Assembly (NCBI GenBank): GCA_016780345.1
Contig: JADHLZ010000001.1
Span: forward strand, 1 to 64,000
Direction: 5' to 3'
Origin: Flavobacteriaceae bacterium
GTDB lineage: Bacteria; Bacteroidota; Bacteroidia; Flavobacteriales; Flavobacteriaceae
Length of the DNA stretch: 64,000 nt
Below are positions 7,562-61,871 of this stretch, piece by piece (within the stretch, counting starts at the first letter, position 1; every line of letters begins with the position of its first letter). The notes under the pieces were generated by a model, which made no database searches, had not been told where the DNA came from, and saw nothing but the letters and a program-made list of their open reading frames with translations. The translations under genes and the position numbers were made by a program.

Positions 7562-7713
7562 AATTATATGCTATAAAATAGAGCGCAAATTTATTAATTA
7601 AAACCTAGTTCTAAAAGTTCATTTGACATTAAATCTATTATTTATAATTATTCTAAATAATAAGTTTTTTTTACAATAATTTCGCAAAAAAAACTAGCTT
7701 TAATTATATAATA

Positions 7714-55467: not shown

Positions 55468-55629
55468 TTCTTTAATATTAATTAGATAATTTGTAAGAAA
55501 TTACTAAATCAAATAGTAAAATTAAGTTATTAAGATAAGAATATAAACTTAAAATTTATTAATAAATTATTGAATATCCAATTGGATTTAATCAAGATTA
55601 TTTTAAATATTAGAACATAAATTATTGAA

Positions 55630-55863
55630 TTAATAAGAAGACCAAGAGAAGCATAGCATTCCAGGAGCTGAGTGACCTGGGTTCGGACAATCAGACTTTT
55701 TGTAACTAGAACAGCTTGCACAATCTGAAAGCTTTGAAAAAGCTTTTTTAATAGAATGGTCTCTACATACATTGTTTATCTCAACTGAAAGATCATGCTT
55801 TGAACATTTTAAAGAATCAACTAAATTCTTACAAGTAAGACAACTATTTACAGATTCAATCAT
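55630..55863 (-). CDS. 77-aa protein with two tandem four-Cys modules, function unknown
   Basis: Cys 8/11/20/33 (C-x2-C-x8-C-x12-C) and 48/51/59/71 (C-x2-C-x7-C-x11-C); own upstream palindrome; compact cytosolic protein. Confidence 0.8.
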   Translation of the reverse strand: MIESVNSCLTCKNLVDSLKCSKHDLSVEINNVCRDHSIKKAFSKLSDCASCSSYKKSDCPNPGHSAPGMLCFSWSSY

Positions 55864-55898
55864 AATTTATATTTTACATAAATCTAAAATGATTTACG

Positions 55899-55915
55899 TT
55901 TAGAATGAATTTAAA
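55899..55915. promoter_or_regulatory. Palindromic operator-like site C (TTTAGAATGAATTTAAA)
   Basis: Differs at one position from site B; 36 nt upstream of the 77-aa ORF start, in the gap after fbpC. Confidence 0.6.
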
Positions 55916-55922
55916 TTAGTTT

Positions 55923-56897
55923 TTATTGATTTAAAGTGAAAAAATTTGAGCAAGTAGAGTCAAATTCTAGTAAATCTTTATTATCAAAATTTAGATATAT
56001 TTTTTTGTTTTTTTTGATTGGATAATCATTGTAAAAGGTCCATGTTTCACCATTTACTTTAGCGCTAATTTTATATTCTTTTCCAGCAAATAAACATTTC
56101 TCAACTTCACCTTCAAAATCAGAAAAATCTGTAACCATAATTTTTTCAGGTCTTAAATAATATATCTTATTTTTAATATTAACTTGATTCAAATCCCCTA
56201 AAATCTTTGCGCAATAACAGTTAATAGGATTACAATACATACTCACTGGATTATCATATTGCTGAAGAATACCTGCCTTGAATATTAAAATTTTATCAGA
56301 AATATTAAATGTATCCCTGATATCATGAGTAACTAAAATAGTAGTAGTTTGAGTTTCTTTTACAATTTTATGAATTTCTTCCTGAATACTTAATTTAATG
56401 CTAAAATCTAAGTTACTAAATGGTTCATCAAGTAATAAAAGATCTGGCTCTCTAACTAAAGCTCTAGCCAAACAAGCTCGTTGCTGTTCACCTCCAGAAA
56501 GTTGATCCGGATACCTGTTGCTCAAATTTTGTAGATTTGTTAAGCTGAGGATGTAATCGATCTTAGATAAAAACCTTTTCTCTAGGTTGATTTTTATATT
56601 CTCTATAATGTTTAGATGAGGAAAAAGTGGGTAATCTTGAAAAACAAACCCAATTTTTCTTTCGTTTGGAGTTACAAAAGTATTTTGATCATCTAAAATT
56701 TTTCCATTTAACTCTATTGAACCAGAATTGATTTTTTCTAAACCAGCTAAACATTTTAAAAAAGTAGTTTTACCAGAACCACTTTCACCAATAAAAGAAA
56801 CAATATCACCTTCTTTAACAGAAAAATTTAAATCTCTGATTAAATGCTCATCTTGGCTGTAATATTTTTTTAAATTGTTAACTTTTAAAAACATCAA
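55923..56897 (-). CDS. fbpC: Fe(3+)-type ABC transporter ATP-binding protein
   Basis: GESGSGKTTFLKCLAG Walker A, LSGGEQQRACLARALVREPDLLLLDEPFSNLD; operon with FbpB/FbpA-like genes. Confidence 0.92.
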   Translation of the reverse strand: MMFLKVNNLKKYYSQDEHLIRDLNFSVKEGDIVSFIGESGSGKTTFLKCLAGLEKINSGSIELNGKILDDQNTFVTPNERKIGFVFQDYPLFPHLNIIENIKINLEKRFLSKIDYILSLTNLQNLSNRYPDQLSGGEQQRACLARALVREPDLLLLDEPFSNLDFSIKLSIQEEIHKIVKETQTTTILVTHDIRDTFNISDKILIFKAGILQQYDNPVSMYCNPINCYCAKILGDLNQVNIKNKIYYLRPEKIMVTDFSDFEGEVEKCLFAGKEYKISAKVNGETWTFYNDYPIKKNKKIYLNFDNKDLLEFDSTCSNFFTLNQ

Positions 56898-58491
56898 TCT
56901 GATTATTTACAATTTTTTTCAAAAATATTAACAATACAACTCCCATCATAACAATAATTAAAGAATAAATTGAAGATTTAGGAATCATTTCCTCAACAGC
57001 GTATTCATAGGTTTGTACTGCAAGAGTATCAAAATTAAAAGGTCTCAATATCAATGTTATTGGTAACTCTTTTAAAATATCAACAAATGTTATTAAAAAA
57101 GCTATAGCAATAGCAGATTTATTTATTGGAAAATGTATCGATTTAAATAATTTTAATGAACCCATACCTAAATTTACTGCAGTATCGTCAAATGAGCTTG
57201 GATGTTTTTCAAAACTGGACTTTAATGGAGAAATTCCTACAGCCATATATCTTATTACATAAGCATATATCAAGACAAAAAAAGATCCAATTAAAATTTC
57301 TGATTTAAAAGGAGTTGAAGAAAATAATATTATTAAAGACAAACCAATAACTGCACCTGGCAGAGCATAGGATAATGATATAGCCTCGTTAAAAATTGTC
57401 AATATTTTATTTTTAACTATTCTTCTTAAAAATTGAAAATACACAGATATTGAAATAATTATAAATGTTGCAATTAAAGAAACTAAAATTGTATTTTTAG
57501 ATAAATTAAAGACTTCAACAAATTCTATTCTTTCGAATTCATAAATAACGTTTTCTGAAATAAATAATATTGGAATTACAAAGCCAAAAATAATTGGCAT
57601 TAAACAAAAAAAATGAATTAATAATTTATTTTTAATATTAGGAATTTCCTCTTTAAAATTTTTCGTATTTGGCTTATAACTGTAATTGTATTTTGAATTA
57701 ATAAACCTTTCTAAAACAAAAAATATCAAAACTGTAAAAAATAAAAAAACAGCGAGAAGAGATGCAGTTTCTACATCTTGCATGGAATACCATGATCTAA
57801 AAATGCCACTTGTAAATGTATTAACTCCAAAGTATTTTACGGCACCATATTCATTAAGAACTTCCATTACAACCAAAAAAAGACCAGAAAAAATTGAGAC
57901 TCTTGAAAGGGGTATAACAATTTTAAAAAATGTTTTTGATTTTGACATTCCTAAACTTTTTGACAATTCAATATAGTTTGATCCAATAAGTGAAAAAGAG
58001 AGTCTACAAGCTGTATAAATGTAAGGGTACAAAGCTAAAGCCATTATAATACCTAAAACTTCAATTTGAAGATAATCTTGATTTAGTAGTTCTGAAAAAT
58101 TTGAAAAATACTTTCTTGCATAACTTTGAATTGGTCCTGTGAAACTTAAAATATCACTGTAAGTAAATGCCATGATGTATACCGGGATAGCGAGAGGAAG
58201 ATAAAGTAGAAAATCATAGATATTTTTACCAGTAAATTTATATGAACTCACAAACCAAGCGGGTATTAATCCAAATAATAGGGAAAAAAAAGATGTTATC
58301 ATTACAAGATATACAGTATTGAATGAATAATCGTATAGTAGATTATCCCATAAATATTTAAAATTTGAACCATCAATGTTTATAGTATTAACTATTAAAG
58401 TTAGTATTGGTAAAATGATAATTATAGAAAGAAGAACTGTAAATAATATTAACTTTCTATTGTTTGAATAATATTTTTTCTTTACTTCCAA
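56878..58491 (-). CDS. fbpB: Fe(3+)-type ABC transporter permease (two-module)
   Basis: About 537 aa with two permease halves; GSNYIELSKSLGMSKSKTFFKIVIPLSR and DDTAVNLGMGSLKLFKSIHFPINKSAI EAA loops. Confidence 0.92.
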   Translation of the reverse strand: MEVKKKYYSNNRKLILFTVLLSIIIILPILTLIVNTINIDGSNFKYLWDNLLYDYSFNTVYLVMITSFFSLLFGLIPAWFVSSYKFTGKNIYDFLLYLPLAIPVYIMAFTYSDILSFTGPIQSYARKYFSNFSELLNQDYLQIEVLGIIMALALYPYIYTACRLSFSLIGSNYIELSKSLGMSKSKTFFKIVIPLSRVSIFSGLFLVVMEVLNEYGAVKYFGVNTFTSGIFRSWYSMQDVETASLLAVFLFFTVLIFFVLERFINSKYNYSYKPNTKNFKEEIPNIKNKLLIHFFCLMPIIFGFVIPILFISENVIYEFERIEFVEVFNLSKNTILVSLIATFIIISISVYFQFLRRIVKNKILTIFNEAISLSYALPGAVIGLSLIILFSSTPFKSEILIGSFFVLIYAYVIRYMAVGISPLKSSFEKHPSSFDDTAVNLGMGSLKLFKSIHFPINKSAIAIAFLITFVDILKELPITLILRPFNFDTLAVQTYEYAVEEMIPKSSIYSLIIVMMGVVLLIFLKKIVNNQIDVFKS

Positions 58492-59507
58492 CCTGTTTTA
58501 TCAAAAATACGAATTGCTTCATTTCTCTTAATTCCAAGCATGTTCAAGTCTAAAGGATCTTTTTTAAACTCTCCCCATTTTTGAACAATTTCATCTGGTT
58601 TTACAGACGGATTCACAGAATATTCATAACTATTATTGACATAAGTCTTCTGTGCACTTAAACTTGTTAAATACTTTATTAATTTAATGGCATTCACTTT
58701 ATTAGGAGCATTTTTTGTGATTGCTATTCCTGAGACATTTATGTGTGCTCCTCTTTCATTTTCTCCTTGATTAGGAAAAAAAACAGAAACTGATTTGCCA
58801 GCATTAATTTCTTCTTCTTTTTCGGAAGATAAAAGCAATCCAATATAGTAGGAATTAACAATTGCTATATCCCCTTGTCCAGCTGCAATTGCTTTTACTT
58901 GGTCTCTATCGCTTCCCTTTGGATCTCTGGCAAAATTAGAAACTACTGCTTCCGACCATTTTGAGGTTTCTTCTAAACCTATATTAGCTATAAGTGAAGA
59001 CATCAAAGCCTGATTATATGCATTTGATGAGGATCTAACCAATAATCTATTTTTCCATTTTTCGTTTGCTAAATCTTCATAAGTAGATAATTCGTTTTTA
59101 TTTACTCTTTCATTACTATATACAATTACTCGAGATCTATAAGTCAATGGAACCCAATACTTATTTACGTCCAATAAATTAGGATCAATATTATTAAAAA
59201 TAGAATCATCATTTATTTTTTGAAACAAACCCAAGTCGGTACCTTGCCATAATTTACCAACATCAACAGTAATGAATAGGTCTGCAGGTGAATTTTCACC
59301 TTCATTAATCATTCTTTGAATTAATTCATCAGCATTAGCCTTTGTTACATTAACTTTTATTCCAGTTAATTCTTCAAATTTCTTGTATTGGATTTCATCA
59401 ACTTTATAATGTCTTTGACTATAAATATTAATTTCATTTAATCTTTTATTATCAGAAGAACAACTAGTTAAAAACAAAGCGACAAAAAAACAAATAAATA
59501 ATCTCAT
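58482..59507 (-). CDS. fbpA: Fe(3+)-binding ABC substrate-binding lipoprotein
   Basis: Lipobox LTSCSS; EINIYSQRHYKVDEIQYKKFEELTGIKVNV, PADLFITVDVGKLWQ, GDIAIVNSYYIGLL. Confidence 0.93.
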   Translation of the reverse strand: MRLFICFFVALFLTSCSSDNKRLNEINIYSQRHYKVDEIQYKKFEELTGIKVNVTKANADELIQRMINEGENSPADLFITVDVGKLWQGTDLGLFQKINDDSIFNNIDPNLLDVNKYWVPLTYRSRVIVYSNERVNKNELSTYEDLANEKWKNRLLVRSSSNAYNQALMSSLIANIGLEETSKWSEAVVSNFARDPKGSDRDQVKAIAAGQGDIAIVNSYYIGLLLSSEKEEEINAGKSVSVFFPNQGENERGAHINVSGIAITKNAPNKVNAIKLIKYLTSLSAQKTYVNNSYEYSVNPSVKPDEIVQKWGEFKKDPLDLNMLGIKRNEAIRIFDKTGWK

Positions 59508-59567: not shown

Positions 59568-59584
59568 TTTAGACTAATTTTAAA
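59568..59584. promoter_or_regulatory. Palindromic operator-like site A (TTTAGACTAATTTTAAA)
   Basis: Same TTTAGA-N5-TYTAAA layout as sites B and C, in the fbpA/receptor divergent intergenic region. Confidence 0.5.
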
Positions 59585-59618: not shown

Positions 59619-59635
59619 TTTAGAATGAATCTAAA
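59619..59635. promoter_or_regulatory. Palindromic operator-like site B (TTTAGAATGAATCTAAA)
   Basis: Perfect 6-5-6 inverted repeat just before the preferred receptor start at 59640. Confidence 0.65.
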
Positions 59636-59639
59636 TAGC

Positions 59640-61871
59640 ATGAAAGAAATTACGTACATAATTCCTCTTTTTATTGTTTTTGTGTTGAATTCTCAAAATA
59701 AAGAGAAATCTAATTATAGTAATCGGGAAAATGAATTTATTAAAGATTCTATAACTGCTCTGGACGAAGTAATTATAAAATCTAATACAATACTTGGAAA
59801 TAAATTTGTAGCAAAAAATAGAACAGGAGCTGCCTACTATTTATCAACAGATGATCTAGCAAAATTTAATTACACCGATATTAATAGAGCATTAAATAAA
59901 ATTTCAGGAATTAATTTTTACGAGGAAGATGGTTTTGGATTACGTCCAAATATTAGCATAAGAGGAACTTCACCAGAGAGAAGTTCAAAAATAGCAATCA
60001 TGGAAGATGGTGTTTTAATTTCACCTGCACCTTACAGTGCATCATCAGCGTATTATTTCCCATCAATCTCGAGAATGCAAGCTGTTGAAGTTTTAAAAGG
60101 GAGTAGTCAAATTCAATATGGACCCTATACAACTGGTGGAGCGATAAATTTTGTTTCAACAGAGATACCAGAATCATTAACTGGAAAAATATCAACCAGT
60201 TTTGGAAGTTTTAGTACTGGTCAAGCACACCTTACATTAGGCGATAGCTTTAATAATTTTGGATACATGATTGAATATTTAAATTTTAATTCTGATGGAT
60301 TTAAATCTTTAGGAAATAATTTAAATACTGGTTTTGATATAAACGAAATAACATCGAAAATTAAATATAAAACTTCTGAAAAATTAAACACTAAACAAAG
60401 TTTAGAACTAAAATTTCATAGTTACGATGAAATATCAAATGAAACTTATTTAGGTTTAACTGAAAACGATTTTAAAATAAATCCTTTTCAAAGATATCTG
60501 GGATCTGTGAAAGATAAAATGGATGCTAAACATATACAATTTTTAATTACTCATGAATTAAATTTTAATGAAAGATTTAAAATTGCAACTAATGCATATC
60601 ACAATGGTTTTAAAAGAAATTGGTACAAATTGAATGATGTTGATTTTGAAGGAAGTTCACAAAAAATTTCAAAAATCATTTCTAATCCTGAAAATTACTC
60701 TGGACACTATTTGATATTGAAAGGACTCTCAAATTCAGAAAATGCTTTAAAAATAAAAGCCAATAATAGAGAATACATTTCAAAAGGAATTCAGACTAAA
60801 ATCGACCATCATTGGTATGGAGATAACAACTCGTTTAATGATATTGAAATTGGAATAAGAGTTCACTACGATGAAGAAGACAGGTTTGAATGGGAAGATA
60901 CTTATTCAATGACTAATGGGGAGATGTCTTTAAATACTTATGGAGAAAAAGGTTCACGTGGCAATAGAATAAGCTATGCAAATTCTTTTGCTTCATACAT
61001 AATGTATAAATACAAGATCAAAGGATTTACTGTTTCACCTGGTTTAAGGTACGAATCGATATTATTAGGTAGAGATGATTTTGGAAAAAACAATTCTGAA
61101 AGAATTTTAATTGATCGTTTTTCCAGTAAAAACAAAGTATCTATACTTATACCTGGAATTGGAATTAATTATACCTTTAATAATAAATTTTCAATATTTG
61201 GAGGCATACATAAAGGATATTCACCTCCAGGCAGCTCAGTTGGTCAAAAGGCTGAGGAGAGTGTAAATTTAGAATTGGGAGGACGATTTTCAATACACAA
61301 GTTAAATGCTGAAATTATTGCGTATCAAAATGATTATAACAACTTACTAGGAAATGATCTTGCAGCAACTGGAGGTTTTGGAGAACTTGATTCATTTAAT
61401 GCTGGAAATGCTTTGGTTAATGGATTAGAAATATTATTGACATCAGATATTGTTGAAAATAAAAAAATTTCTGTTCCATTTTCATTTTCATATACTCTAA
61501 CTAATGCAAAATTCTTAACTGATTTTGGAAGTAATCAAGAAATTTGGGGAGAAGTAAGCAATGGAGATAGAATTCCATACATTCCACAGCATCAATTGAA
61601 TTCAAATATTGGTATTAAAACAAATAAATTTGAGATTAATTTTAATGGAAATTATAACGGAGAATTCTCAACTATAGCTAATGGATCAATTAAAATTCCA
61701 TCCTATTTTATATTTGATGTTTCTTTTAAATTCAAAGCTAGACATGGTATAACATACACATCCAAAATAATCAATTTATTTGACAAAAATTACGCCGTTT
61801 CTAGAGCACCTGCTGGATTAAGACCAGGTCATCCTTTTGGAATTTATGTTGGATTTGATTTCCTGTTATAA
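59640..61871 (+). CDS. FecA-like TonB-dependent receptor
   Basis: EEDGFGLRPNISIRGTSPERSSKIAIMEDGVLISPAPYSASSAYYFPSISRMQAVEVLKGSSQIQYGPYTTGGAINFVST plug; C-terminal barrel; start MKEITYII preferred over MNLNSM at 59625. Confidence 0.93.
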   Translation: MKEITYIIPLFIVFVLNSQNKEKSNYSNRENEFIKDSITALDEVIIKSNTILGNKFVAKNRTGAAYYLSTDDLAKFNYTDINRALNKISGINFYEEDGFGLRPNISIRGTSPERSSKIAIMEDGVLISPAPYSASSAYYFPSISRMQAVEVLKGSSQIQYGPYTTGGAINFVSTEIPESLTGKISTSFGSFSTGQAHLTLGDSFNNFGYMIEYLNFNSDGFKSLGNNLNTGFDINEITSKIKYKTSEKLNTKQSLELKFHSYDEISNETYLGLTENDFKINPFQRYLGSVKDKMDAKHIQFLITHELNFNERFKIATNAYHNGFKRNWYKLNDVDFEGSSQKISKIISNPENYSGHYLILKGLSNSENALKIKANNREYISKGIQTKIDHHWYGDNNSFNDIEIGIRVHYDEEDRFEWEDTYSMTNGEMSLNTYGEKGSRGNRISYANSFASYIMYKYKIKGFTVSPGLRYESILLGRDDFGKNNSERILIDRFSSKNKVSILIPGIGINYTFNNKFSIFGGIHKGYSPPGSSVGQKAEESVNLELGGRFSIHKLNAEIIAYQNDYNNLLGNDLAATGGFGELDSFNAGNALVNGLEILLTSDIVENKKISVPFSFSYTLTNAKFLTDFGSNQEIWGEVSNGDRIPYIPQHQLNSNIGIKTNKFEINFNGNYNGEFSTIANGSIKIPSYFIFDVSFKFKARHGITYTSKIINLFDKNYAVSRAPAGLRPGHPFGIYVGFDFLL

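Follow-up and report, generated by a model that had tools for sequence, protein, structure and literature searches.

In large parts of the ocean, growth is limited by iron. Flavobacteria play a major part in degrading algal matter, yet their response to iron shortage beyond uptake is poorly known. The ferric-siderophore reductase FhuF is a Fur-controlled Fe-S protein made in iron starvation. The classical HiPIPs are periplasmic. Bfd is an Fe-S ferredoxin that acts on bacterioferritin and reduces the stored ferric iron (PMC7760384). The smallest known HiPIP, PioC, binds a [4Fe-4S] cluster via Cys22, Cys25, Cys34, and Cys47, and in HiPIPs aromatic residues are conserved at two positions, directly before the last Cys and 2–3 residues after it (PMC7462912). 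Glycyl radical enzymes have HiPIP-like subunits in which the ligand order is likewise C-x2-C-xn-C-xm-C (PMC12358834). As to regulation, the predicted Fur box of Riemerella anatipestifer, a member of the Flavobacteriia, is ATTTAGAATTATTCTAAAT (PMC5609570, Table 5; the abstract prints a different, E. coli-like string), and purified Fur binds Riemerella promoter fragments that carry the box, including that of hmuR, in EMSA (PMC5609570).

The window, that is, the whole stretch of DNA analysed here, comprises 64,000 nucleotides from a Flavobacteriaceae bacterium (GenBank assembly GCA_016780345.1, contig JADHLZ010000001.1, positions 1 to 64,000). An iron-import locus in it contains a gene for a protein of 77 aa, which we call the twin four-Cys protein (Table 1). 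Its translation has Cys at positions 8, 11, 20, 33, 48, 51, 59, and 71, as follows. C8, C11, C20, and C33 form module 1, C-x2-C-x8-C-x12-C, and C48, C51, C59, and C71 form module 2, C-x2-C-x7-C-x11-C. The coordinates and the two modules described in the earlier note are thereby borne out, as is its placement of the gene 59 nt downstream of the end of fbpC on the same strand. Inspection by eye, like that note, reveals no evident signal peptide, and the protein contains no DNA-binding or enzymatic domain. The ORF is a real gene rather than a chance reading frame, since the spacing and the eight Cys columns are conserved across homologs. An overlapping ORF in another frame (55530-55772) was without support. 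At the TonB receptor, the called ATG (59625) falls inside a perfect Fur box, so that the ATG at 59640 is the more likely translation start.

Table 1. Features of the iron-import locus in the window.
Feature	Coordinates	Strand	Basis or remark
Twin four-Cys protein gene	55630..55863	minus	Translation and homologs with invariant Cys
Candidate Bacteroidota -7 promoter element TAGATTTA	55879..55886	minus	Consensus TAnnTTTG, one mismatch; read from sequence
Fur-box operator TTTAGAATGAATTTAAA (minus strand TTTAAATTCATTCTAAA)	55899..55915		Separated from the start codon by a 35-nt spacer
fbpC-like ferric-iron ABC transporter ATPase	55923..56894	minus	Pfam ABC_tran 5.7e-34
fbpB-like permease	56878..58491 (ORF-caller coordinates)	minus	Inferred from gene order and sequence
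fbpA-like iron-binding protein	58482..59507	minus	Pfam SBP_bac_8 9.6e-25, SBP_bac_6 1.1e-15
Fur-box-like dyad before fbpA (minus-strand TTTAAAATTAGTCTAAA)	59568..59584		
Perfect Fur-box dyad TTTAGAATGAATCTAAA before the TonB receptor	59619..59635		
TonB-dependent receptor (FecA-like)	59625..61871	plus	Pfam TonB_dep_Rec_b-barrel 2.2e-29, Plug 8.8e-15

Homologs are concentrated in one family of bacteria. When 100 related genomes were searched, the window's genus proved to carry the gene in 13 of its 22 genomes (the window's own included), and the rest of the family in two. A wider draw of 400 Flavobacteriaceae genomes includes 66 that carry a homolog, and a sample of 395 genomes from the class yielded only 2 with a homolog outside the Flavobacteriaceae. 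A scan of public genomes yielded 33 named loci, among them loci of Aequorivita, Olleya, Pseudozobellia, Nonlabens, Winogradskyella, Maribacter, Aquimarina, and Urechidicola. Poor conservation of the Cys positions had been named beforehand as a finding that would refute the earlier proposal; in 80 distinct two-module homologs, all eight Cys columns are 100% conserved, and 74 of the 80 keep the exact spacing 2, 8, 12, 14, 2, 7, 11. Strong conservation extends to further residues, among them N13 and L14, which follow the second Cys, and H23, V27, P62, M69, and W74. One homolog from Aquimarina (L047:7995) aligns from an Ile codon where the others have the start Met, possibly an unusual start codon or a sequence error.

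Six further homologs of about 40–46 residues, counted from the start nearest the first Cys, carry module 1 alone (L128-L133). No remnant of module 2 is present in any forward frame of the available downstream sequence, L129 ending at the contig end; therefore, module 1 can stand alone. One of these short forms, L128, follows fbpABC, as does the window's gene. The internal duplication proposed in the earlier note is weakly supported by sequence comparison of the two modules: in its favour are a local hhalign match of 14 columns (P = 0.0007) and permutation of the flanks (p = 0.034), whereas the global alignment is not significant (P = 0.17).

The gene has in front of it its own copy of the palindrome that precedes the iron genes, as had been pointed out before, with kin copies ahead of fbpA and the TonB receptor. 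The copy at 55899-55915, one mismatch from a perfect dyad, matches the Riemerella box ATTTAGAATTATTCTAAAT and presents the Fur box ATTTAGAATnATTCTAAAT near the start codon. Taken alone, the dyad is not rare in this AT-rich window, where five matches are found against 2.07 expected and 4 of 100 shuffles reach five. The plain one-mismatch dyad was rejected as evidence by itself, since genome-wide it is not enriched (31 occurrences versus 70 for a reversed-pattern control), and, as the half-sites vary, looking de novo for exact dyads upstream of the genes was not informative. The box stands above chance because it is conserved across species at a near-fixed distance. At nearly every locus of the genus, ATTTAAATTCATTCTAAA is unchanged 52–60 nt before the start codon, while the remaining intergenic DNA diverges. 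An operator weight matrix, built from the window's genus and then applied outside it, finds the operator, or a second copy near -100, at 44 of 68 loci versus 7 of 425 control genes, two of these seven being the Fe-S assembly genes sufE and mrp; scores at the loci and in control upstream regions differ accordingly (Mann-Whitney p = 1.8e-33). The window's genome encodes one Fur-family protein (PF01475), and 14 of 15 genomes of the genus have at least one.

The candidate -7 element sits 12 nt downstream of the Fur box, an arrangement in which the operator would lie over the -33 region. By a loose criterion, TAnnTTTG with no more than one mismatch, such an element occurs within 60 nt in 85 of 94 upstream regions. 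With its own Fur-type promoter, the gene need not depend on read-through from the fbp genes. A conserved box of a published type, together with the repeated linkage to iron genes described below, makes Fur control of the twin four-Cys gene highly probable and gives strong support to the earlier proposal that it is iron-regulated.

Operators of this type are predicted at other genes as well. In the window's genome, Fur-box dyads lie between an AraC-ferrochelatase pair and hemA (G000:C30:42708-42724, L157) and before mrp-nfu (G000:C40:44092-44108, L158); going by these sites, the iron operator seems to be common to haem and Fe-S synthesis. The same motif precedes DUF4856-imelysin operons. A further Fur-box-like dyad, TTTATAATTATTCTAAA, is found in the window at 7641-7657, before nqrA of the sodium-pumping NADH dehydrogenase, which suggests that respiration may be under iron control.

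Within the genus, the gene order is TonB receptor, fbpA, fbpB, fbpC, the twin four-Cys gene, and then often guaB. Elsewhere, the neighbours, identified with Pfam, are a DUF4856-imelysin-HTTM-TonB receptor cluster, imelysin with a di-haem peroxidase, a TonB receptor with HmuY (HmuR/HmuY), fur, flavodoxin, PepSY membrane genes, or, again, fbpABC. The expected linkage to fbpABC is thus a property of the window's genus and a few relatives, other iron partners taking its place elsewhere. Linkage to iron genes as such, the lack of which the earlier note had named as grounds for giving up its proposal, holds. Outside the genus, a strict iron gene lies within 7 kb at 34 of 68 loci, against none of 40 control windows comparable in size and drawn from the same genome group (Fisher p = 3e-9), and, by coordinates, an imelysin gene lies within 10 kb of the twin four-Cys gene in 16 of the 21 genomes that have one, against 0.14 expected; since the loci share ancestry, such probabilities overstate the independent evidence, and the variety of arrangements is the stronger argument for linkage.

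A recognised iron neighbour is missing at nearly half of the loci outside the genus (32 of 68), a count in which neighbours are labelled by similarity to a seed set, partly checked with Pfam, so that unrecognised iron genes would be missed. It could be argued that the gene is a passenger, which lies near iron genes through a shared chromosomal position beside guaB and stands outside the iron response. Indeed, guaB is nearby at 24 of the 68 loci, and the linkage is to that extent inherited position. However, 15 of the 34 loci with a strict iron gene have no guaB near and show several different arrangements, and the Fur box is retained at 19 of the 32 loci that have no recognised iron neighbour, so we consider a passenger very improbable.

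The DUF4856 cluster occurs in 40 of 66 genomes with the gene versus 89 of 334 without it (p = 2e-7, kinship ignored). We rejected a fixed partnership between the gene and the imelysin cluster, as the co-occurrence is significant but partial; with only 40 of the 66 gene-bearing genomes having the cluster, the gene is not strictly tied to any single uptake system. The conserved Fur-boxed operon itself, DUF4856 (PF16148)-imelysin-HTTM/gamma-carboxylase-like-TonB receptor, is seen at L042:1549-7774 and at many other loci, DUF4856 being present in 129 of 400 Flavobacteriaceae genomes. Two other groups of genes were noticed at these loci. DUF6607 (PF20311) genes at L043:3765-4667 and L040:3555-4454 (minus strand) are divergent to HmuR-like TonB receptor genes, and the DNA between the two has a Fur-box-like site. 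A small unnamed family of about 110–130 aa, often paired, lies beside the gene at L047:6850-7233 (minus strand) and also at L039, L086, L090, and L091. It has a C-x-C-E-N-C motif in L047, one member scanned gave no Pfam match, and the Fur-box motif precedes nine of nine copies; judged by these motifs, it is a candidate for a second uncharacterised member of the iron regulon.

The setting of the gene bears on two further alternatives. In the first, the protein would be an iron chaperone whose thiols hold Fe2+ from the importers, or a cluster, and deliver it to Fe-S assembly or haem synthesis. The gene adjoins importers (fbpABC and TonB receptors) and shares its operator type with haem-synthesis and Fe-S assembly genes, as such a role would have it. 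To our knowledge, however, known Fe2+ chaperones use no full four-Cys sites, unlike this protein, and aromatic shielding suits a buried cluster better than a donor site, which leaves a chaperone a distinctly unlikely reading. In the second, the protein would be an iron or Fe-S sensor with unstable clusters, the apo form of which, in starvation, binds a partner such as Fur or an Fe-S assembly protein and tunes the response. Fur control, a position adjoining or near fur at three loci (L040, L046, and L047), and an operator in common with sufE, mrp, and nfu agree with a sensor, yet the domains expected for DNA binding or catalysis are lacking and no partner is constant across genomes. A sensor is unlikely, if somewhat less so than a chaperone.

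Searches against described families gave little. Pfam and NCBIfam scans of the protein and up to 36 homologs returned only sub-threshold, inconsistent matches; the best match among curated zinc ribbon and zinc finger families was likewise sub-threshold (E 0.011). A PDB sequence search with two profiles returned noise only (neuropsin, ribosomal bL21m). PF18671, the HMM of the HPAD small subunit, does not match the gene; for the HiPIP HMM PF01355, 12 genomes gave no match there at E <= 10. The earlier note, which did not recognise the family, was right as far as Pfam, NCBIfam, and PDB sequences go. Its suggested route through AlphaFold and Foldseek led nowhere: AlphaFold2 runs with two alignments (31 and 28 sequences) gave poor models (pLDDT 44.8 and 43.6), which were excluded from the evidence, and Foldseek found no match with either. 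A small cluster-driven fold may explain this failure, as in PioC, whose fold lacks clear secondary structure and is apparently driven by the cluster (PMC7462912). The family is uncharacterised and unnamed, and these searches place it in neither the HiPIP nor any other known family.

The spacing of the Cys residues in module 1, 2/8/12, is identical to that of PioC from Rhodopseudomonas palustris (PDB 6XYV). Module 1 fits the HiPIP criterion C-x2-C-x(8-16)-C-x(12-14)-C, and module 2, at 2/7/11, is one residue shorter in both long gaps. Three positions after the last Cys, Phe is found in 57 of 82 module 1 sequences and Trp in every one of the 74 module 2 sequences; in the window's own protein, module 1 has His instead of Phe; the aromatic residue just before the last Cys is absent in the homologs, which have T/V or L there. 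The residues flanking the four Cys resemble those of HiPIPs more closely than permuted orders do (p = 0.016 and 0.027). In hhalign, the comparison with four HiPIPs gives P = 0.0018, with all four Cys in register, and that with HPAD small subunits P = 0.0028, versus P = 0.04–0.35 for eight other Cys-protein controls. As a yardstick, HiPIP against HPAD, which are proven fold relatives, gives only P = 0.0068. Among the sequences compared, those checked against PDB chains are 1ISU, 1CKU, and PioC. The preference of the profile for HiPIP-fold proteins over the controls is weak, and the resemblance as a whole is a lead of moderate strength and not proof.

The main rival to a cluster is zinc. The modules would then be zinc knuckles, and the protein would act in iron starvation on other proteins or RNA, as a small adaptor or a post-transcriptional helper, at no cost in iron. 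An iron-free protein is economical under iron starvation, the N-terminal module does occur alone as a very small protein, and the nearly invariant H23, placed as C20-x2-H23, gives module 1 a zinc-finger-like C-x2-C-x8-C-x2-H. Yet H23 is replaced by Q in two homologs that retain all Cys; module 2 has neither Cys nor His at the equivalent place and needs C71; and the zinc-protein controls score far worse than the HiPIPs in hhalign. We therefore hold zinc to be unlikely, although the most serious of the alternatives. The metal- or Fe-S-binding character first suggested is well supported by the eight invariant Cys, and the spacing points to a miniature HiPIP-like site; an Fe-S site of this kind in the modules is, on balance, probable.

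The explanation that we favour, as a tentative choice, is that the twin four-Cys protein is a cytosolic, Fur-controlled, miniature HiPIP-like Fe-S protein of iron starvation. When iron is plentiful, Fe-Fur on the promoter-overlapping box would keep the gene off, along with the adjoining iron-import genes; as iron falls, its own promoter would turn the gene on. The four-Cys modules would each hold one [4Fe-4S] cluster in a miniature HiPIP-like fold, and the protein might pass electrons that release or reduce ferric iron inside the starved cell, like Bfd and FhuF. A redox role is the weakest step; among the possible functions of such a protein, electron transfer seems, by analogy, the most likely. 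Up to eight Fe in each molecule of a starvation protein would be costly, a cost for which Bfd and FhuF are precedents.

The protein looks like an unrecognised working part of the response of marine flavobacteria to iron shortage: an uncharacterised family is present in about one sixth of the sampled Flavobacteriaceae, and it carries a conserved Fur box also at loci that lack any recognised iron gene nearby. The operator set, which takes in importers, haem synthesis, Fe-S assembly, and the twin four-Cys gene, constitutes a directly testable Fur regulon. If the protein holds Fe-S clusters, the HiPIP-like fold extends to cytosolic iron homeostasis, and the natural one-module forms of some 40 residues offer a very small model Fe-S protein.

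In control and timing, one counterpart would be FhuF, which is a [2Fe-2S] protein, much larger than the twin four-Cys protein and of unrelated fold. Bfd, too, is a small Cys protein of the cytosol, with a function in releasing iron from storage (PMC7760384, PMC12363616), but it has one [2Fe-2S] cluster and another Cys pattern; there is no Pfam match to it, and hhalign gives no sign of kinship (P = 0.04 over 11 columns). The HPAD small subunit has about 85 aa and two [4Fe-4S] clusters, and the accessory subunits of HPAD, BSS, and MASS (PDB 2Y8N, 2YAJ, 5BWE, 9O8U) have C-x2-C-xn-C-xn-C sites in HiPIP-like folds (PMC12358834). These subunits differ in having longer spacings and in being part of enzymes of anaerobes, the glycyl radical enzymes; the gene maps, in which the neighbours were partly profile-scanned, show none of these next to the gene. 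With the HiPIPs and PioC, the twin four-Cys protein shares a bulky or aromatic residue three positions after the second Cys and a very short chain, and it departs from them in its tandem modules, its Fur control, and the lack of a visible export signal. It is tempting to go one step further, to a possibility that we rate below the explanation given above and as rather unlikely in full: that this is a new family, the smallest cytosolic HiPIP-like Fe-S proteins, built of one or two modules of ~30 residues and controlled by Fur in marine flavobacteria, which would carry electrons for the release or reduction of iron in starvation, a counterpart of Bfd and FhuF on an unrelated fold.
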